Below, piece after piece: positions 6,961 to 61,174 of a stretch of 64,000 nucleotides of DNA (position 1 is the first letter of the stretch; every line of letters starts with the position of its first letter). A program made the translations under genes and the position numbers. The notes beneath the pieces are model-generated. The model did no database searches, was not told the origin of the DNA, and saw only the letters and a list, made by a program, of their open reading frames with translations. The stretch covers positions 16,995,467-17,059,466 of the forward strand of contig CAIIXF020000002.1 in assembly GCA_903813345.2 (NCBI GenBank). The letters run 5' to 3'. The stretch comes from Owenia fusiformis. Taxonomy: Eukaryota; Annelida; Polychaeta; Sabellida; Oweniidae.

Positions 6961-8766
6961 ATGACGTTTGACGAAACTCTGGGTTTGTTGGGAGGTTTTG
7001 GACGATATCAGCTATATGTATTGCTCGTATGGAATATATTCTTTACAGCGAATAGCTGGCAGTACATCCTTACTAATTTTATAGCTGGTAAGATGGACCA
7101 TTGGTGCAATGTACCCGAGTTGCAACATTTAAATGAAACCATGCAGAAGTTGATTGCTATTCCCCAGACGACTGGTCCACTGGGGGATACGATATACAAA
7201 CAATGTAGTATGTTCAACTATAACTACAGCGCTTTCAACTTCACCGATTCCAGCGTAATCGACTCATTGATCGGCAATGGGACAACTTCTGAAATTGGTT
7301 GTAACAATGGATGGGTGTTTGATAAATCCGTGCGGGAAGCAACAATTGTCAGCGAGTTCGAACTTGTATGTGATGACGACTGGATGTTTACTCTGCCTGC
7401 TACATTTCAGATGATCGGACTTCTGATTGGAGCATTCCTTTCCGGACTTATTGCCGACAGGTTTGGAAGAAAGCGAACTGCCCTTGGTATGATACTTTGT
7501 TCTATCGGTGCTATTGTAGGAGGAGCTTTCTCAAATAACTTCATCCTGTTTTTGATAATGCGTTTGCTGTCACTTTTGACTTCAATCGGGGCTTACACGA
7601 GTCTTTGGGTCCTTACTCTCGAGGTGATGCCACCTGTACACAGGACACACGCTACACTTTTAGCCAACTCAATGCGCGTACTAGGCGCATTTATGACCCT
7701 AACGGCCTTCTTCATTAGAGGTCATAAATGGTTGCAGATTATTTCAGGATTAATAGCAATTCCAGGTTTCATTGGTGTGTGTTTCTTGTCAGAATCCCCT
7801 CGTTGGTTAATCGCCAAAGGGCGATACCAAGAAGCTGACGATATAAGCAGGAGGATCGCCAGAATAAATAAAGTTACTCTTCCTGATAATTTTACCTTAT
7901 ACGATAAGGCCTCAACAAAAAACGAATGCATAAAGGAAGAGCCTGTGAAAGTGTCAGTCATAGACTTATTCCGTACCCCAAACATGAGGAAGAGGACCTT
8001 GGTTATCTGGGTCCAATGGTTTGCTGTTGTGTTTGGTTCCTACGCTATGGTACTTAACGTTGGTACATTGATACCCGGAGACATTTATCTAAATAATTTC
8101 CTTGTCAATGGACTATCTGATCTTATTTCGCCATTATTTATGTTGGTTGCATTATTCAAGATGGGCAGGAAAACAACAGTAATTTCGTTTAGCATCGTGA
8201 ACGGTGTTTTTGCTTTGGGGATGATTGGACTTTTACAGACAAAGATCATGGCATTGACATCGACAGCTGCCCTGTTCGGATCACTTATGATAAACCTTGT
8301 GTTCAGAGTGATGTATTTATATAGTGGCGAACTATTTCCTACACCTGCACGTAACGTTGGACTTGGAAGTGGCTCGAGTGTTGGAAGAATAGGAGGTCTT
8401 ATAAGTCCAAATTTACCATTGTTCGGTAAAATTTGGTATGGATTGCCATACGCTATGTTGGGAGGATTTTCTTTGATTGCTGGTGCGCTGGCTTTCTTTC
8501 TCCCAGAGACTAAAGATAAACAACTGCCAGAGACGTTCGAAGAGGCAGAAGTTTTCGGCACTAGTGACATGAAAAGCGATAAACGAAATGTTGGTGCCAC
8601 AATGGGTACTGTTAAGTCAGTATATGGTGGTATTACACACAATGGAAATTATAAGTTTATTGACAATGCACATGTAGAGAACAGCCGAAATGGAGTTGTT
8701 AACAAATCATATAAAGAAACCAGAGAGGAGAGTATCTATGATCCAATCGACCTTAATAAGCTGTAG
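6961..8766 (+). CDS. SLC22-type organic cation/anion transporter, copy 2
   Basis: A 601-aa paralogue of the transporter at 800-2626, also a single coding exon. It is a plasma-membrane facilitator with the same landmarks: TM1 near residues 17-43, a glycosylated cysteine-containing extracellular loop, GLIADRFGRKR, SESPRWLIAKGR, GELFPTPARNVGLG and the LPETKDKQLPETF terminus. The tail after it shares little sequence with copy 1. The reading frame starts at the first Met, equivalent to that of copy 1. Lack of introns in both copies suggests that an intronless ancestor, perhaps a retrocopy, was duplicated in tandem. Part of the extracellular-loop coding sequence is unusually similar between copies (see findings). 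The substrate is unknown. AATAAA signals lie at 8842 and 9381. Confidence 0.95.
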   Translation: MTFDETLGLLGGFGRYQLYVLLVWNIFFTANSWQYILTNFIAGKMDHWCNVPELQHLNETMQKLIAIPQTTGPLGDTIYKQCSMFNYNYSAFNFTDSSVIDSLIGNGTTSEIGCNNGWVFDKSVREATIVSEFELVCDDDWMFTLPATFQMIGLLIGAFLSGLIADRFGRKRTALGMILCSIGAIVGGAFSNNFILFLIMRLLSLLTSIGAYTSLWVLTLEVMPPVHRTHATLLANSMRVLGAFMTLTAFFIRGHKWLQIISGLIAIPGFIGVCFLSESPRWLIAKGRYQEADDISRRIARINKVTLPDNFTLYDKASTKNECIKEEPVKVSVIDLFRTPNMRKRTLVIWVQWFAVVFGSYAMVLNVGTLIPGDIYLNNFLVNGLSDLISPLFMLVALFKMGRKTTVISFSIVNGVFALGMIGLLQTKIMALTSTAALFGSLMINLVFRVMYLYSGELFPTPARNVGLGSGSSVGRIGGLISPNLPLFGKIWYGLPYAMLGGFSLIAGALAFFLPETKDKQLPETFEEAEVFGTSDMKSDKRNVGATMGTVKSVYGGITHNGNYKFIDNAHVENSRNGVVNKSYKETREESIYDPIDLNKL

Positions 8767-24219: not shown

Positions 24220-27200
24220 ATGGCAGATGCATACAGCTTCGTGAAAGGGGGAAAATTAAAGCTTAAAGGAGAAAAGACGTAAGAACTAATAATATTTTTT
24301 TATTTTATAGATAGCCTAGACTTATCCCGTTCCAGGACTATGGTCCTGTACGGAGCCCATACATTTGCCTGTACGATTACAACTTGGGAGAATTATCTAC
24401 GCCCCTTCCACTTAAGAAACCTACCTCAATGCATTCTAGAACTCAAAATGTAACTTCTAATATATTGGAACCGCCGATTGTCTGGGTTAGTTGGCAGAAC
24501 GAGGTCTTTTTGTTTCTTATGGCTCTTTTGGTCGAAGTTCGATTAAGATGGCGGTTATAACGGAATTTCCCGAACTCTTCCGTAATAGCACGAACTTGGT
24601 TTTTCGTTACGTCACTTCCGTGTAAAATGGATTTGTCACCGGTAAGAGGGAATTTCGAAAATTTCGGACAATATTTTCAATATTTACTGCCATGTCGACA
24701 TCCTATGCTCTTAACTGTATACCGAATGGTTAAACAATGTTTCTTACCGGAAACAAATCCATTTTACACGAAAGTGATGTTACGAAAAACCAAGTTCGTG
24801 CTATTACGGAAGAGTTCGGGAAATTCCGTTATAACCGCCATCTTAATCGAACTTCGACCAAAAGAGCCATAAGAAACAAAAAGACCTCGTTCTGCCAACT
24901 AACCCAGACAATCGGCGGTTCCAATATATTAGAAGTTACATTTTGAGTTCTAGAATGCATTGAGGTAGGTTTCTTAAGTGGAAGGGGCGTAGATAATTCT
25001 CCCAAGTTGTAATCGTACAGGCAAATGTATGGGCTCCGTACAGGACCAAAGTCCGGGAACAGGATAAGCCTAGACTAGGTTAGACCTACATGTAAAGTGG
25101 GGGACAAAAATAAACCTCAACCATCAAAAGTTGTCACAATGAGCTAATTTATAAGTTTCGTGTCTCAAACTCTCCCAAGTGGTAGAAAAATAATTCCCGT
25201 TTACTTGAAGTAGCACAATAAATGAATCCAAAGCTTTATACCTGCAAATGATGGATAAATCCCTACCAAATCGAAAGAATGTTTTCATGAATCGCCATGT
25301 TTGTGATCCAAGAAGGATTGACTCCCAGAATGCAACATAAGTTAACCTTATTTACTCGTGACAGGTTTCAAAATGGCGTTCCACCATTTTGAAAGCTGGC
25401 ACGTGTCATATTTGCATTTTGGGAGTCAATCCTCCCTTGCGGCGTAATCGGGCTCCAAAATCACCTCAACATTTGAAGAGTCGGCATTAACATGTGAATA
25501 TCCACTTCAACTTTTTAAGTTCTTATTTGTCATTATGGACACAAATTTCACTATATTTTGACTTACTAGGACGGAGAAAATAGAGCACTGAATACACTGA
25601 GGTAAGAGTTTATGCGACAGCATGTAATTTTCATAGCTATAGTACTGCCCTGTCAACCCTCACGCATTAGGCGTGATTGTCACGCATTTGCTGGAAAAAT
25701 AGAAATCACGCATCAATTCAGCGTGTATGATCAAATATCACGCAAATCACGCATTTTGTTGAATTTTTTAAAAATCTTTTTTTGTGAAATGCCGATACAC
25801 ACGGTGACCAAGAGTTAACAGTGCAAATTGGCCCGGTCATGTTTTTTCAAACTCTTTAGTCGTGTTTTGTAAAAACATGGGATGCGACATTCGATAGAAT
25901 GGAGCAAAAAGATAAGAATATTCTATATTTTACAAACTTACATATCTTGACTTCTACCTTAGATGTTCTTCTTCATACCCACGAATCTATTTTGGGGATA
26001 GATCCATCATACTTCATATCAATCGCAATTATATACCAAAAGTGCCAGAAATATGGACTTAATTTGCATTTAGTGTTATTTATTTACGTTTAAATAGACA
26101 ATCCATTCAACAACGTGGAATAATATTCACTAGTCTAAAGATCGTGTAAATATTTTAACTGTATTTATCTAAAAAAATTGCCATAAATGACCGTAAATGT
26201 AGAAAGTGGAGTTAACTATGGAGAAGGGACAACATAACATAAGCATGTTAACGTTTCGGAATTGTAAAGATAACGTTTTAGACGTGATAAAATTAACGAC
26301 TGAATTGTCTTGTAATAGTGTTCACATTTCACATGTTTTGTTGCTTAATAATTTGTCTGTGCTTCTGAAAATACCAATTTGACTAAATCTGTTTTTCAAT
26401 GGAGTGAGAAAAATATGAATCTGTGATAACAATATTGTGGTATTTCTTCAAGCCTAATTGAGATGAAAAGATCTGAAAATAGTAAGGTCTTTGTGGATTT
26501 GTACAGTGCCACCTGGCCTAAATAAGTTCACATTTTTATGTTATTGAATGCACATGTTTCTGTTTCAGCAAGAAGAAACATAAGAAACACAAGAAGCGTA
26601 AACACGAAGAGACAGAGGGGGGAGATGGGGATGCCACAGATACATTACAACATGGTAAAGTTGACTATATTTTCAAGAGAAAATTTTACTGCAAAAAATA
26701 TAAAGAAGTGCAAATAAACAATCTATGGGGTCACTTAAAGAGCAAAATTACTGAAGTAGGTAATATGATAATCTACTGATTTACTTTGGCTATGCAAGGG
26801 TTGACACAAAAAAATAAGATTGTTGTGTTTTTGTCTCACTGAAATTATTTACATTTTAATGTTGAACACCTCGTTTTAGGTGGCTGGTGGCGAGTGAGCA
26901 AGCATAAGGAAATCACAGGATCCATTGCGATAGAACTGGGAGAAAATTGTTATATTCAAGCACAAGACAATGGTTTGTTCTCCACTGGCCCTCATAGAGA
27001 AATAGGTGTGTAGGAGGAGGGGAATGAAAAAATTGTGTATCCAAGGTTGAAACTTGCATATTTTGGAAAGTACAATAACTTTGGGGCAATATTTCAACCG
27101 TCTTAAAATCTGATTTGAAATGGAGAAAATGTTTCAAAAAGACATGGTCATGTTCCCAAATATGTACATATTGTACACAGTACTCGTATGTTTGGATGGA

Positions 27201-41331: not shown

Positions 41332-43707
41332 GTTTTAAAATCAACACAAATTGATAATTAATTCAGTGTGTTTAGTTAATTTTCGAGTACCTCAAGCTAA
41401 TGATAGTAACCATTCAAATGTTGAGAGTGCGGCTAATAATAACTTGATAATGATGATAATAACTTAATTCAATGTGTTCTTATGAGTATCGTAACAACAT
41501 GTAACCAACAGCCTCTCATGATCATAATTTAATGCTCAGTATGGCTAGTCCGTTGTATCACGTCCGTAAACTCGCAATCGGGTGAAAACGGGCAAAGTGC
41601 ATCTAATTTTTAGAATCAACACATATGCAATGGCTTCCGCATATTAAGCGAATAATCCGATCAGAGGATGGGTCCGGGGGGTGGGCCTATTGAGCCATAT
41701 TTGGACAGACTGAAGAAGAAATTAATTTTTTTATAAGCATACACATGTTTATTGAGCATGCATGGTTCAAAAACTGAATGAAAACAATATATAATATCCA
41801 ATTATGAAAGACTCATGACAATGTTGCAATTATTAACTGAACAGTGGAATTTGGTAGAAATAGGCTATTGTTCGCAAAATCGCTGAAAATTGAAAAGGTA
41901 TTTTTGACCCCCATGTCACATTATTGGTTATATTTCTATATGGGGCTGTTGAAAATGGTGCTATTATATATCATTTTGTTGCAAATTAAATTATCTTTAA
42001 AATGATATATCATTATTGGTGTACATGTTAAAAAATAAATATTAATCAGGAATAGTGGCTAGGGGGTGTTTTTTGGCCCACCCTGTATATATCTATATGA
42101 AAGGACTACTTGAATTAAATAAAGCTTGTACTTAAATTGTATTATCAGTTATCACACGTTTCTGCATGTGATACAGGAAATATTCCACAAAAGGTAATAC
42201 TGTATCATCCACGAAGGCGAAGCTTGAGTGGTGATACATTGTTACTCGAGTGGAATATTTCATGTATCACATGTCTAGGAATTTTGAGGCATTTTGATTT
42301 GGTCAGTTATGATTGTTTTCAGTACTCTGTATTCCTGGAAACTATTATAATTTTTGGTTTTGCTTTGAAACAATATGACGTCATACCGTTGTATTCGTAC
42401 TTTTTTGTGAAATAGTATGTCGTCATATTGTTTTCCTTAGCTAGAAGTAAGAGGAGGGAAAGCCCCAGAGTTTAAAGATGACAGGCATAATTACCTCTCT
42501 TGCTTACCACCTTCGTTCGTTCGAATTTTCATCGGCTAGTTATCAAATACTTCACTTCGATGGGATGTTTTAATTGGTATAGGCATATTCCGTACACCTT
42601 TCTTTATCTTGATGTGAAATGAGAAGCTATGATATTGATTAACACTCCAGAAATGAACGTAATATTATTCGAAGCCTATTTCGAAAATTTTGAAACCGCC
42701 ATTGATGACGTCATTTGTTTGTCGACTTTTGACCAATCAGCGACGATGTCATCTCAATACAGATTTACATTATAAGCGTATGTCATCTTTGAACCCTGGT
42801 GTTTCTCCCCCTCTGGCTAGAAGTGATATAATCTGTGACGTCACATCGTTGCTATTGACTCCGTAGTGATACAGCTCACCGTATCACATGAAAATTAGTC
42901 ACGTGTCAAGTGATACGGAATACACATCATCACAATTGACCAATCAAAATGCGTAGACACTCCTAATCATGTGATAATATAAATTATTACTTGAATAATA
43001 AAAACAATACAGTACAAACGGTGCCCCAATTTGAATACGTAGATTATGACAGAAAGAATGTTCATCAGTAAAAATATAAAGAATGTCCATTGAAAGATGG
43101 CATAGTTGTAGTAGTCAAAGGCATTTTTGAGAGAACAGAGGGAACTGAACAATGTTAAAACACTTGAAGTTTTTTATGTCATTCTGAACCTCCAAAACAT
43201 AAGCTGCCAAGCATTCAAAGAACTTTATGAATGTCTAATACTTACTAAGAACATCAATGCGCTTTCATAAGGAGTTTTCGCATTCAGCAATGAACAACAA
43301 TAATAGACTAATATTGAGACAAATTAGGTAAAATAACGATTAAGTTAATCTAATTCGACTTTAATCCATCGGCGCGATATATTTCATTGAAAATCAGTTG
43401 ATAAATTTACACCTTTTGATCCAGTATTTATACATATGTTACATGCAATACATTTAATGACAGCTATGATTGGATTGGCAATGAAAACGAAATACAGAAT
43501 AAAGGCATGACGTGCTGAACTCAAAGTACAAATTATTGATCAAGGCATTTGAGACCGATTACGTGTGAATTAAGATCATGAGGTCAAACTAGGGCCAGGA
43601 CACCTAGCAAAAGTAAGATAAAAAGAGATAAAACGCAGTAGATACGGTTGCAACATTAACACTCGGCTAAAGTAGCCTAAGGTATTAATCCAACATCCAC
43701 GACTACG
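41332..43707. other. Intergenic region between the CTLD gene and the bicupin
   Basis: Contains the 3' UTR of the CTLD gene, a one-ended mariner-like terminus (GGCCCACCCTGTATAT, about 42075), a fold-back element at 42151-42275 and AT-rich DNA. No gene is seen. Confidence 0.5.
42151..42275. repeat. Fold-back element
   Basis: Arms GCATGTGATAC-GGAAATATTCCAC and GTGGAATATTTC-ATGTATCACATG. The inner arms GTAATACTGTATCA / TGATACATTGTTAC enclose the apex CACGAAGGCGAAGCTTGAGT. Related GTGATAC sequences recur at 42868-42960. Confidence 0.65.
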
Positions 43708-44487
43708 ATGAAGGTAACAGTAACGAACGGTCAGCCGCTCCTGGATATCGGTGAGACTGGACTAACCGGGAAAGTACTAGTTTCTAGCGCTGATAATGTC
43801 GGCTTCATGGTGTACGATGTATCACTGGGAAAAGGACAGGTAGCGACGCTCAAACCGTACGAGAGTGGGTACAATCATACCTACTATGTTATGTGTGGCA
43901 CTGCCTCTGTCATATCCGAAAAAGGTGAAAACGTCACAATCGGTCCTGATACCGTTATGGCAATGGATGCAGATACAACTACCACTATGACTGTATCAGA
44001 TGACATAAGACTATCCATAGGTTATGTTCCCAAGGACCCCGATCATAGCCCCGCTCGGTTTACTATCCGGAAACTGTCCGAACTGGAGGGTACAACAGGT
44101 GATAGGAATATGTTTTGGATCTCTGGATACAGTAGGCGATATCTAGTGAAATCTGATGGATACAATATGACCGTAACGAACACAACGTTGGATCCGAACA
44201 CGATGTCTCCCCTTCATTACAAGAATCACATCGAGGCTGTGTTTATGTTCAAGGGGTCTGGGAAGTACGTTTGGAACAGTGGGGAAGATTCTCACGCGTA
44301 CGACCAAGAGAAACACGATGGTACGATGTTTCTAATCAACGGTCACGAGGCCCACAATATTTACAATGATGATAAGGAATCCCAGTGTATTTGCTACTTC
44401 TTCCCAGCTTTAGTGGGACACGAAACTCATTATTTCACCAAAGAGACAACGGGACATTCAGTCTACCCCAAAGATTCCGAAAAATAG
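43708..44487 (+). CDS. Ectoine-synthase-like bicupin (EctC family)
   Basis: A 259-aa intronless protein. The C-terminal half (about 120-245) follows bacterial ectoine synthase block by block: a RKLSELEGT start, SRRYLVKSDGYNMTV, LHYKNHIEAVFMFKGSGKY, a GTMFLINGHEAHNIY turn, and CYFFPALVGHETH, corresponding to the family's CxFxPxLxGxExH ending. Bacterial EctC is a metal-dependent cupin of about 130 aa that cyclises N-gamma-acetyl-diaminobutyrate to ectoine. E176 and H216 align with iron ligands; the position of the ligand tyrosine appears to be Phe208. The N-terminal half (1-115) has the same order (VGFMVYDVSLGKG, YNHTYYVMCGTA, DTVMAMDADTTTT, IRLSIGYVP) but lacks the Glu and His ligands. So this is a tandem cupin with one degenerate half. 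No signal peptide or TM segment. Catalysis is unproven. AATAAA lies at 44790. Confidence 0.8.
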   Translation: MKVTVTNGQPLLDIGETGLTGKVLVSSADNVGFMVYDVSLGKGQVATLKPYESGYNHTYYVMCGTASVISEKGENVTIGPDTVMAMDADTTTTMTVSDDIRLSIGYVPKDPDHSPARFTIRKLSELEGTTGDRNMFWISGYSRRYLVKSDGYNMTVTNTTLDPNTMSPLHYKNHIEAVFMFKGSGKYVWNSGEDSHAYDQEKHDGTMFLINGHEAHNIYNDDKESQCICYFFPALVGHETHYFTKETTGHSVYPKDSEK

Positions 44488-46347
44488 GACAGTAACCATG
44501 ATTTACAGGGGATGTTAGATTTGAAACACTTAACCTATTTAGATATTATTACCATATGTCCACAAAGCCAGTGGCGGATACAGGGGAATCCAGTACTGAG
44601 ACAATCATTTAGTCCCGATGATACCGACGACGTCAGATCACGGTGTAACATTGTAATTGTTCAATTTACAATGTTCCTCAGATTTATTGTTAAAGGACAA
44701 CTGAAATAGCTTTTCTCAACTTGCAGCTACAAAAATGCGGTTTTCTCCATTGTAAGCCCATCGTAGAGTTCTTGCGATAGCCATTATAAAATAAATGTTA
44801 GATAACTGCTATAGATAACGAAATAAAACTCAGGTATATTTTTGAAAATTACAGGTTTTGTTCAGATCAACCTGAGACTAAGTGTTTTGGGGTTATTTTC
44901 ATACTGAACATCCGTGCATAATTAACAGCTTTCAATCCTGCAGTCTAAATATCGCTTTCAATTGTTAAACTACCGACTTTGAATGAACCTTCGTGCATAT
45001 TTCGAAAATCATGGGAGAAGGTTTTAAAGCAGGCAATCATCTCTAAAACCAGAAAAATAAAGCCTGACGGATTTCAGTTTGATCCTCATGATATGGAATT
45101 CGCTTTGTAGCCTATTATGCGCGGAATAAAAAATTTCTAAATTTTTAGGAAAATTTAAAATGTTCAGAAATGTTCAGAGTGTAGCAAATGACATCCAAAT
45201 CCTAACATTTCCTCGCGTCGGACCCCTTGTTAGTTGCCATCTAGCCTTCTTTGCTCATTCATCGGCCTCCAATTCAACAATTAAGGCGCAACCCCTAACC
45301 TGGACTAACTGGGAAAGAGAACACAATTGAGTTCACTTCATACAAATTGCTTTCAATAGCATCCAGCTCGAACTCGGCCATCATGTCGGCTGACATAGAA
45401 AAAAACGGATCGAGAAATGTGTTTGAAAATGTGTGTTTTATTTCGTTTTTGAATGGTTATAAATGATAAAGTGGGGGGAGGGTAAGTTGAATACAGGAGT
45501 TTAGCCTTGCTAAATAGTTGAAAATACTCTATAAACAGCCAATAGATGTCTAGCCCATTTTCAGGAAAAGAATCTTAGGCCTAAAGCAGATCCCCATTGA
45601 ACCAACATGTAAAACATCACATTTATACTATGATTTTAACATCATAAAGCTACCATTTCTGTTTCCTCATTCATTTAGAAAATCAACAGATTTTTAGGTA
45701 AGATCTTATACATCATTGGTATGAAGTTTTTTAGTCTTTTAAGGATATACCAGTGTAACCTCCGAAAAAATCGACCATTTTCAATCTCAATGAAACTAGG
45801 TTTTTATTATAGACCTAGATGTAGCGATTCGAAAAATGTAATAAAAAAGGTGGGTCAACGGATTAGTTTTTTCATGAGAAGCTTCTGAAAATAGGTGTGA
45901 CGTTATCATCATTTGAACATTTGAGGCGCCATTGATTCCAAAGCAAAAAAACATATTTTCCTATATTTCGTTGATAAAATGATGATTTAGGGAGTACTGA
46001 CGATTTTTTCGAGCCTAGATAAACAATTTTGACTTTAAAGCCCTATAACTTTGTTACACTTTAAGAAACGTATCAATTTTTGTTAAATAAAGTTATCAAA
46101 TTCAATTGCCTGCCTAACTCGTATTTTTGCAAGGACTCAGATGGATGGATATTCTGTCATATGACTTGCGGCAAACCTACCATTTCCCATTGGTTAACAT
46201 GGGAATGTCGAATTTAAAAAATTCATCAAATTTATCATCGATTTTCGACTTATTGTAATTGAGGAAAAAAATTGAGAAAATTTGGTAATCATGGGGGGCT
46301 TTAAAGTCAAAATTGTTTTTCAAAAAAACCTCTCCTATATATATAGT

Positions 46348-58897: not shown

Positions 58898-59625
58898 AGT
58901 TTTTTTCTTTTTTATTTATCTCTCGGCCACAATCTTTTTAAATCTCTTTTTATACAACATATACTCATATATACAAAACCATTGAATGACAAAATACAAT
59001 ACTCCATGTCATTGTCTGATAACTCAAATGCCCCGTGAAGATTCAAATTATACATTTCGATCAAAGCATGTCGCAAAACAATTATGTTCTCAACGTCATG
59101 AGAAAAATTGAGTAAATATTATACTAATAAAATGTCGGTTTATGTGCAGGTCTAAACATCTAACATTTTGTGATGTTACAAAATAACACTGTGATATGGT
59201 TAAAGGTGCATCATTTCAGAAACAAATCCCTAAATTGTTTCTACGGGAATTCTTTCTAAATACATTCAATAGCCATAACATACAAGTATTGCTTGACAAG
59301 GTTTTCCAAGAAATTTCCGTGAAAGCGTTTTAAATGGAATCAAAAGGAAATACAATCTTAAATGTATTTATCTAGGGAGTAATATTCTTGTCATATTTTG
59401 TTGTGATCTCATTCTTTGTTTATTGGTATAATGTAATAATGGTCCCCAAAATAACTATTTTCAAAAATATATGACAAATTCAACATTTTCAAATTTATAA
59501 TTAAAACAAAGTTCACATATCATACATATGGGAAGACAACAATATTATCAAAAATGGTTTGAATTAAATCGTTCTTTGAGTAATACGTTGAAGTATCTAT
59601 TTTTGTTTTGATGAGGCCATGTGTT

Positions 59626-60630
59626 GCTTGCAGTGCCTTGAACTGTGTTTCTTCTATGTTTCAGTTTAAATCAAATGATTGTAATGATGTTGCCTGTAGT
59701 GCCTTGAACTGTGTTTCTTCTATATTTCAGTTTAAATCAAATGATTGTAATGATGTTGCCTGCAGTTCCCTGAACTGTGTTTCTTCTATATTTCAGTTTA
59801 AACCAAATGATTGTAATGATGTTGCCTGCAGTTCCTTGAACTGTGTTTCTTCTATGTTTCAGTTTAAATCAAATGATTGTAATGATGTTGCCTGCAGTTC
59901 CCTGAACTGTGTTTCTTCTATATTTCAGTTTAAACCAAATGATTGTAATGATGTTGCCTGCAGTGCCTTGAACTGTGTTTCTTCTATGTTTCAGTTTAAA
60001 TCAAATGATTGTAATGATGTTGCCTGCAGTTCCTTGAACTGTGTTTCTTCTATGTTTTAGTTTAAATCAAATGATTGTAATGATGTTGCCTGCAGTTCCC
60101 TGAACTGTGTTTCTTCTATATTTCAGTTTAAACCAAATGATTGTAATGATGTTGCCTGCAGTGCCTTGAACTGTGTTTCTTCTATATTTCAGTTTAAATC
60201 AAATGATTGTAATGATGTTGCCTGCAGTTCCCTGAACTGTGTTTCTTCTATATTTCAGTTTAAACCAAATGATTGTTATGATGTTGCCTGCAGTGCCTTG
60301 AACTGTGTTTCTTCTATATTTCAGTTTAAACCAAATGATTGTAATGATGTTGCCTGCAGTTCCCTGAACTGTGTTTCTTCTATATTTCAGTTTAAACCAA
60401 ATGATTGTAATGATGTTGCCTGCAGTTCCCTGAACTGTGTATCTTCTATATTTCAGTTTAAATCAAATGATTGTAATGATGTTGCCTGCAGTTCCCTGAA
60501 CTGTGTTTCTTCTATATTGCAGTTTAAACCAAATGATTGTAATGTCGATGTTGCCTGCATTTCCCTGAACTGTGTTTCTTCTATATTTCAGTTTAAATCA
60601 AATGATTGTTATGATGTTGCCTGCAGTTAT
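59626..60630 (+). repeat. 66-bp tandem array carrying splice acceptors and signal-peptide starts
   Basis: Fifteen units of 66 bp (one with 3 extra bases near 60545). Each holds a pyrimidine-rich acceptor (TTTCTTCTATATTTCAG), then TTTAAAT/CCAAATGATTG, in which ATG opens the frame MIVMMLPAV. In all but the last unit a TGA follows the tenth codon. One unit has TTTTAG and one TTGCAG in place of TTTCAG. TTTAAATC and TTTAAACC variants alternate irregularly. Long open frames across the array are a consequence of 66 being a multiple of three. Confidence 0.9.
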
Positions 60631-61174
60631 GCTGATTGGCCATCAATCTTCCGCAGAAACAACAACTCCTGAAATACCTGACATGATAGACTTGCCACCG
60701 GGTTTTGGTGATTTGACTGATGTATCACGATTGGGTGGAAGTGATGACAAATATCCTGGTTGTATTGTTCCATTACGTTTTATTAAGAAGAAAAAAAAGC
60801 ATGACTTTGATCTCACAAATGGATGCTGTGTTGTCTCCTTTGTAACAAGTCATGAGCGAAACCGAACAGACCTAGATTTCATTCAATCGATTGAATGCTT
60901 TTCAAATTGTGAAGATGCATATACGCCACTTGCCATTAATGAAACAAAAACTTGTGTTAAAGAAGAATTTGCAGATACTTTATGGGATGAATTAGGCCTT
61001 TATGGAAATTATCTTGGCGGTAGTCTCTTTTGTTCCCCAAGTGACAACAAATGTCTTTCGTTGAAAGTAGATACAGATATTTATTTTGAAAACTGTTGTT
61101 CATTTTCAAAGAAGTTGTTAGGATACAGCTGTAAGTCATATAAGAAGTGCAAAAAACAATCTCTAATTAAATAA
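60602..61174 (+). CDS. Secreted 12-cysteine protein, unrecognised
   Basis: 190 aa from the ATG in the last unit of the 66-bp array, after the acceptor at 60591 (TATATTTCAG). The N-terminus MIVMMLPAVMLIGHQSSA is a plausible signal peptide with cleavage before ETTTPEIP. The mature part has 12 cysteines (GC, GCC, ECFSNC, TCV, FC...KC, NCC, SC...KC), a KKKKK stretch near residue 60, one NET sequon and a Lys-rich end. Twelve cysteines could form six disulfides. No known domain is recognised. Any 5' exon would be untranslated, or the gene starts inside the array. AATAAA at 61183 lies just past the stop. Confidence 0.65.
   Translation: MIVMMLPAVMLIGHQSSAETTTPEIPDMIDLPPGFGDLTDVSRLGGSDDKYPGCIVPLRFIKKKKKHDFDLTNGCCVVSFVTSHERNRTDLDFIQSIECFSNCEDAYTPLAINETKTCVKEEFADTLWDELGLYGNYLGGSLFCSPSDNKCLSLKVDTDIYFENCCSFSKKLLGYSCKSYKKCKKQSLIK

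Follow-up and report, generated by a model that had tools for sequence, protein, structure and literature searches.

The locus lies in a window of 64,000 nucleotides (the whole stretch of DNA analysed here) from the annelid Owenia fusiformis. On its forward strand, a single open frame encodes two ectoine-synthase-like cupins joined in one chain, followed by candidate signals for polyadenylation. The gene and its parts are as follows:

43708..44487, + strand: bicupin EctC-like gene, single exon, 259 amino acids plus stop (open reading frame, PF06339, NF009806, AlphaFold2 model)
43708..44061, + strand: N-terminal EctC-like cupin, about residues 1-118 (profile scores, alignments, N-half model against EctC entries)
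44062..44484, + strand: C-terminal EctC-like cupin, about residues 119-259 (profile scores, ligand-position alignment)
44266..44331, + strand: four-residue insertion and Tyr84-to-Phe position, about residues 187-208, YVW...GTMF, common to bacterial bicupins
44790..44827, + strand: candidate polyadenylation signals, two AATAAA (44790, 44822), motif match only

The gene begins with ATG within an open frame of 268 codons (43681-44484), a length reached in 0 of 20 first-order Markov simulations of the window, where the longest frame had 227 codons. On the whole bicupin the Pfam model Ectoine_synth (PF06339) scores 90.5 bits (1.3e-25) against a cut-off of 27, which is above the gathering score. When the protein is cut at residue 126, the C-terminal part retains a match of 6.1e-20, and the N-terminal part reaches 6e-4 and 20.5 bits, under the cut-off. 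The NCBIfam ectoine synthase model NF009806 matches with 99.5 bits (1.4e-28), under its cut-off of 128, and the solved chains matched at E<0.01 represent four distinct EctC sequences. Ectoine synthase EctC is a single cupin (EC 4.2.1.108, PF06339; 5onm, 5onn and 5ono from P. lautus, 5bxx and 5by5 from S. alaskensis), whereas the animal protein places two barrels in one chain of 259 residues. The C half follows EctC in fold and in the order of its motifs: NHIEAVF, GHEAH and CYFFPALVGHETH, which an earlier note made from the letters alone had read as the EctC order, are all found in the frame.

The same note had described the gene as intronless amid multi-exon neighbours. A single exon it is, but two further frames in the window, at 773-2623 and 6961-8763 (+), likewise run as single open frames of about 600 codons each, so that the EctC-like gene is not the sole intronless gene there. 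Both of these match Pfam Sugar_tr/MFS and are presumably SLC22-like transporters. DNA repeats as a trace of recent internal duplication are absent within 42500-45600. Elsewhere in the window, the forward frames 24315-24557 and 24734-24943 are found again, nearly unchanged in sequence, on the reverse strand (24832-25074 and 24446-24676), which makes 24315-25074 an inverted repeat of some length that may be what remains of a mobile element, and 59584-60669 (+) holds a tandem array of CNDVACSSLNCVSSIFQFKPND-like repeat units over long open frames.

A PF06339 search of the animal genome (498 Mb, 525 contigs) finds two loci, the window gene and a match at C11:31629923-31630288. The latter falls within a second copy, C11:31629908-31630642(-), whose one open frame encodes 254 amino acids and is 60% identical to the window protein. 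Between the copies, the N halves are 61% and the C halves 59% identical, dN is 0.32, synonymous sites are saturated and 86 of the 151 identical residues are written with different codons. As judged from these comparisons, both halves are under purifying selection. Since the N halves are as conserved as the C halves, the degenerate N barrel is being maintained and is not in decay.

A gene without introns, whose relatives kept from a scan of bacterial and archaeal genomes (80 out of 97) are all bacterial, might be suspected to be bacterial contamination or an assembly error. However, the two diverged copies lie on contigs of 35.8 Mb (C2) and 37.3 Mb (C11) beside animal genes, with FRG1, ricin-lectin and MFS-transporter sequences near the window gene and Death-domain exons beside the second copy, in agreement with the clearly animal context claimed before. 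Their GC3 values (0.49 and 0.42) are close to that of the transporter genes of the window (0.41). In addition, the bacterial bicupin matches are 31-32% identical, and no single cupin exceeds 40% identity, a value that covers one half. Contamination is thus ruled out by where the two copies sit and how far they have diverged, and we consider it virtually impossible.

How is this unusual protein built? The AlphaFold2 model, computed with a 45-row alignment, contains two complete cupins at a mean pLDDT of 89.0 and a pTM of 0.87, and the N half modelled alone (25-row alignment, pLDDT 78.5) also folds like EctC. In a Foldseek search with this N-half model the EctC entries 5onm, 5onn, 5ono, 5bxx and 5by5 occupy ranks 2-13 with query-normalised TM values of 0.65-0.70; rank 1 is another cupin, 6b8w, EutQ and further cupins score almost equally, and the bacterial EctC rows in the alignment might have biased the model toward the EctC fold. 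The best full-length fold matches of the animal model are bicupins of the (S)-ureidoglycine aminohydrolase/YlbA type (4e2q, 1sfn, 1sef, 1rc6), with Z between 22.9 and 24.5, 215-222 aligned residues and an rmsd of 2.2-3.0. These are 10-16% identical to the animal protein and carry out a different chemistry, and no ureidoglycine aminohydrolase family or chain appears among the sequence matches of the window protein. The fold neighbours therefore identify the two-barrel arrangement as a known one and tell nothing firm about function. With VIA-align, no EctC chain is among the 50 matches listed for the full bicupin model, which excludes nothing.

The active site is best described in the residue numbering of P. 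lautus EctC, where iron is bound by Glu57, Tyr84 and His92 and each alanine mutant retains 5-15% activity (15% for Tyr84 to Ala), according to PMC6344544. In the alignment, the corresponding positions of the animal N half read His57, Met84 and Thr92, which leaves no EctC iron ligand and fits the previous description of this half as a second, degenerate EctC-like cupin. In the C half, Glu176 and His216 retain the positions of Glu57 and His92, and Tyr84 is replaced by Phe208, or by Ile in the second copy. The pocket residues Ser23, Arg25, Thr40, Tyr52 and Phe106 are retained, while Trp21 has become Gly140 and Asn38 has become Thr. Since the Asn38 column is His in all five ectABC-linked sequences of the set, this position is not a sharp criterion for EctC. 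At the Tyr84 position, 83 of the 86 single cupins have Tyr and three have Phe, but the 13 distinct bacterial proteins with two cupins have Phe without exception. All 13 of them, like the two animal copies, retain Glu57, His92 and the greater part of the pocket.

Among single cupins, the orphan EctC proteins form a natural point of comparison. The set contains 81 that do not lie beside EctA or EctB, as judged on stretches of about 2-12 kb, so that some may be linked to these genes further out. In 53 of the 81, Trp21 is replaced by Gly, and many carry W..G.SRR, as does the animal protein; unlike the animal bicupin, they are single cupins that keep Tyr84 in 78 of 81 cases. Ectoine research has still to settle what these proteins do (PMC5924519, PMC6344544). 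Two orphan EctC genes have natural-product genes as neighbours: one in Gloeothece (L005) lies beside a tryptophan 7-halogenase and a GNAT gene, and one in Aliiroseovarius (L007) beside beta-ketoacyl synthases and an AMP-binding protein. EctC-like single cupins also occur at 57 loci in viral contigs. In one of these (L105, 4998-5942) the cupin continues, on our reading of the sequence, into a ParB-like stretch, and the phage records KJ567043 and MN313256 (hits H30 and H27) carry the annotation 'ectoine synthase/ParB multidomain protein'.

Bicupins make up four of the 80 bacterial relatives kept, three from Stappia and one from Mesorhizobium sp. Root554. In whole-genome searches of the Stappia family, 12 of 87 genomes had the bicupin. 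For the order to which the Mesorhizobium genome belongs, the count was 5 of 397, four of them already among the 12; at class level (E<=1e-25), the starting genome alone has it among 385. Together these loci (L012-L015, L158-L168) yield 13 distinct proteins when identical ones are counted once. No match covering 80% of the query was found in 101 and 118 plasmid records or in 5 phage records. Three wide matches were rejected as bicupins: the EctC frames of L057 and L064 are single cupins, and L030 (5036-5818) holds two separate EctC-like single-cupin genes in tandem, a pair that fusion could turn into a bicupin.

The bacterial bicupins share their layout with the animal protein at an identity of about 30%. 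In common are the degenerate N half, the loss of Tyr84 and the four-residue insertion before that strand, as well as W..G.SRR, SPL.Y and the YVW segment, which reads YIW in the second copy. Unlike the animal protein, the bacterial bicupins carry Asn where EctC numbering places His89 and Ser where it places Cys104.

What sets the bacterial genes apart is the company they keep. Behind the bicupin, L012 and L015 both encode a lysine/ornithine-type N-monooxygenase (PF13434), then an NIS synthetase of the IucA/IucC-FhuF kind (PF04183 and PF06276) and an oxygenase of the 2OG-Fe(II) type, with an MFS gene after them on the opposite strand, and homologues of the same operon genes are present in L013 and L014. 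The N-hydroxylase, the IucA/IucC gene and the 2OG oxygenase thus adjoin the bicupin in 4/4 long loci; over all 13 genomes, the N-hydroxylase adjoins it in 11 and the 2OG oxygenase in the other two, whose loci span about 3.7 kb. In the single-cupin loci compared, hydroxylase, synthetase and oxygenase all went unmatched at E<=1e-6, and the stretches compared of L012-L015 gave no hit to EctA or EctB. Heading such an operon, the bacterial bicupin is likely a component of an NIS-siderophore-type pathway and not of ectABC. Because the closest bacterial relatives of the animal protein sit in siderophore-type clusters, it probably makes something other than ectoine. The animal locus itself lacks such neighbours: for the N-hydroxylase, IucA/IucC and 2OG oxygenase, there are only chance-level short matches in the window and none at L170.

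The animal gene is apparently of bacterial origin and was most likely acquired from a bacterium. The earlier note had proposed horizontal acquisition followed by internal duplication. The first part is favoured by our results, but the second is not, because bicupins with a degenerate N half already exist in bacteria. A tree of C halves with all columns (95 rows, 9 bicupin C halves and 86 single cupins) unites animal and bacterial bicupin C halves in one clade with a support of 100/98, and the ectABC-linked EctC sequences (L010, L011, L043, L089, L090) group together elsewhere in it (98/90). When N halves are added (54 rows, 36 of the 86 single cupins), they group together with 89/87 (not starred) and the C halves with 99/98. 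The six near-identical bacterial bicupins were left out of the trees, and L064 was left out of all trees and HMM sets.

The competing scenario is that a single-cupin EctC entered the animal, was duplicated there and lost one half to decay, with the likeness to bacterial bicupins arising from convergence or long-branch attraction. The branches of the animal sequences are indeed long, and forcing animal N and C halves into one clade costs 18.5 lnL units without being rejected (AU p 0.125). Furthermore, when the 22 columns around the insertion are left out (50 rows, 41 of the 86 single cupins), the support of the C-half clade drops to 79/93, and placing the animal rows with Porticoccaceae single cupins lowers lnL by 3.6 and is not rejected (AU p 0.365). 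Profile scores are mixed as well. The window N half scores 31 bits on the HMM of bacterial N halves, against 24 on that of single cupins and 12 on that of bacterial C halves, but the N half of the second copy gains nothing from the HMM of bacterial N halves (15.8 bits, against 16.6 with that of single cupins). Conversely, the HMM of animal N halves gives three bacterial N halves 22.0, 12.7 and 8.3 bits and the best single cupin 20.7, and the HMM of bacterial N halves gives single cupins up to 48 bits. With the HMM of animal C halves, the single cupin L017 (95.6 bits) comes about as near as the bicupins L012 (102.2) and L015 (94.5). Nevertheless, duplication inside the animal would have had to arrive independently at a layout, a degenerate N half, a Tyr84 loss and a four-residue insertion that bacterial bicupins also have, and the best tree pairs N with N and C with C, so that we regard it as unlikely. 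Given the drop in clade support, the alternatives that the tests leave standing and the mixed HMM scores, transfer of a gene that was already fused is preferred as the best supported account, not a proven one.

Could the animal nevertheless make ectoine, as suggested when the gene was first noticed, or take up N-gamma-ADABA and cyclise it for use as an osmolyte? As a true ectoine synthase, the protein would explain why the C half retains Ser23, Arg25, Thr40, Tyr52, Glu57, His92 and Phe106. There are also precedents. Harding et al. (2016), cited in PMC5796728 and PMC5924519, reported EctA- and EctC-related sequences in the animals Branchiostoma floridae and Saccoglossus kowalevskii, together with EctA-EctC fusions in certain eukaryotes, and a solitary ectC of P. 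syringae yielded ectoine in an H. elongata ectC mutant, a result that the review PMC5924519 calls not yet conclusive. Against this stand the replacement of the Tyr84 ligand, whose alanine mutant keeps the 15% activity mentioned above (PMC6344544), the change of Trp21 to Gly, the score under the NCBIfam cut-off, the ligand-free N barrel, the lack of any match to ectA or ectB in the stretches compared around the bacterial bicupins L012-L015, and a tree position apart from the ectABC-linked EctC.

The partner genes point in the same direction. In profile searches of the animal genome, run exon by exon so that weak exon-split matches can be missed, the EctA HMM gave no match at E<=1. The EctB HMM gave a single one, at 34.9 bits against a cut-off of 552.2, which was rejected as an ornithine aminotransferase exon. 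The model for EctD found no match and recovered no control either. The search for siderophore-type partners turned out similarly: IucA/IucC (PF04183) had no candidate in the animal genome, with 2 of 14 controls recovered, and the N-hydroxylase model PF13434 had two matches on C6, at 24.3 and 24.2 bits against a cut-off of 21.3 (E about 0.0024), of which L149 was rejected as a flavin monooxygenase exon (FMO-like 125 bits versus 26.5). Because of the exon-by-exon design, these nulls are absences of evidence; on what they show, the enzyme would appear to work in the animal with neither set of bacterial partners. All in all, we consider ectoine synthesis very unlikely.

In our reading the gene works in the animal and encodes a bicupin that belongs to the orphan lineage of EctC, outside ectABC; it was most likely acquired already fused, and its product would be a non-ectoine cyclodehydratase with the dead N barrel as partner. 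To this reading as a whole we assign a probability of roughly 0.5. In mechanistic terms, the N barrel would serve as a covalently attached dimer partner that holds the live C barrel, and the latter would bind its metal through Glu176 and His216. The chemistry is proposed by analogy with EctC: an amine would attack a neighbouring amide carbonyl, water would leave and a cyclic amidine would form, on a substrate other than N-gamma-acetyl-diaminobutyrate. In bacteria this substrate could be an intermediate or building block of a siderophore-like product, and in the animal a free small molecule.

The idea of a built-in partner comes from the EctC dimer, which is assembled head to tail with the N-terminal strand of one protomer on 81-GMMYAL-86 of the other (PMC6344544). 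The bicupin model places strands at the positions equivalent to both of these pairs, namely 2-5 with 206-210 and 118-122 with 82-86. Moreover, residues 1-20 fall from a pLDDT of 83-86 in the full model to 42-49 in the N half alone, which was modelled with a different alignment. With strands at both equivalent pairs and a segment that loses confidence on its own, we infer from the models that the bicupin may be a fused EctC dimer with one dead site.

One objection to a cyclodehydratase is that the loss of Tyr84 might abolish activity and not change it. The second barrel would then be disabled too, and the protein would be kept as a non-catalytic bicupin that binds a small molecule or has a structural role. 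One of three iron ligands is indeed lost in the C half and three of three in the N half, and the full-length model also matches vicilins, which are bicupins of seed storage, in fold. It is difficult to see, however, why Glu57, His92 and most pocket residues should then persist throughout both animal copies and the 13 bacterial bicupins, or why the bacterial copies should lie in a biosynthetic operon. We therefore hold such a role to be quite unlikely, and return to the non-ectoine cyclodehydratase as the preferred reading.

A bolder version of it, in our view a long shot, is that the animal uses the fused cyclase of a siderophore operon without the rest of the pathway and thereby obtains an undescribed cyclic amidine or metal-binding metabolite. 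Such a compound could be derived from glutamine, for example ADPC, which H. elongata EctC forms from glutamine in a side reaction (PMC6344544). Were this true, the bacterial operon would lead to a siderophore with a new kind of ring.

EctC-related sequences in two deuterostome animals had been reported before, by Harding et al.; the bicupin form and the operon link appear to be new. Our literature search found no paper treating EctC together with a bicupin form and, judging by titles and the openings of abstracts, none that looked to link ectoine-synthase-like genes to an NIS-siderophore-type operon. A bicupin branch of orphan EctC can now be connected both to such an operon in bacteria and to a duplicated gene pair under selection in an animal, which gives the question of orphan EctC function concrete substrates and hosts. 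If the preferred reading is true, EctC-type cyclisation would take place outside ectoine synthesis, and an animal would have kept a bacterial cyclase with one of its barrels turned into a built-in dimer partner.
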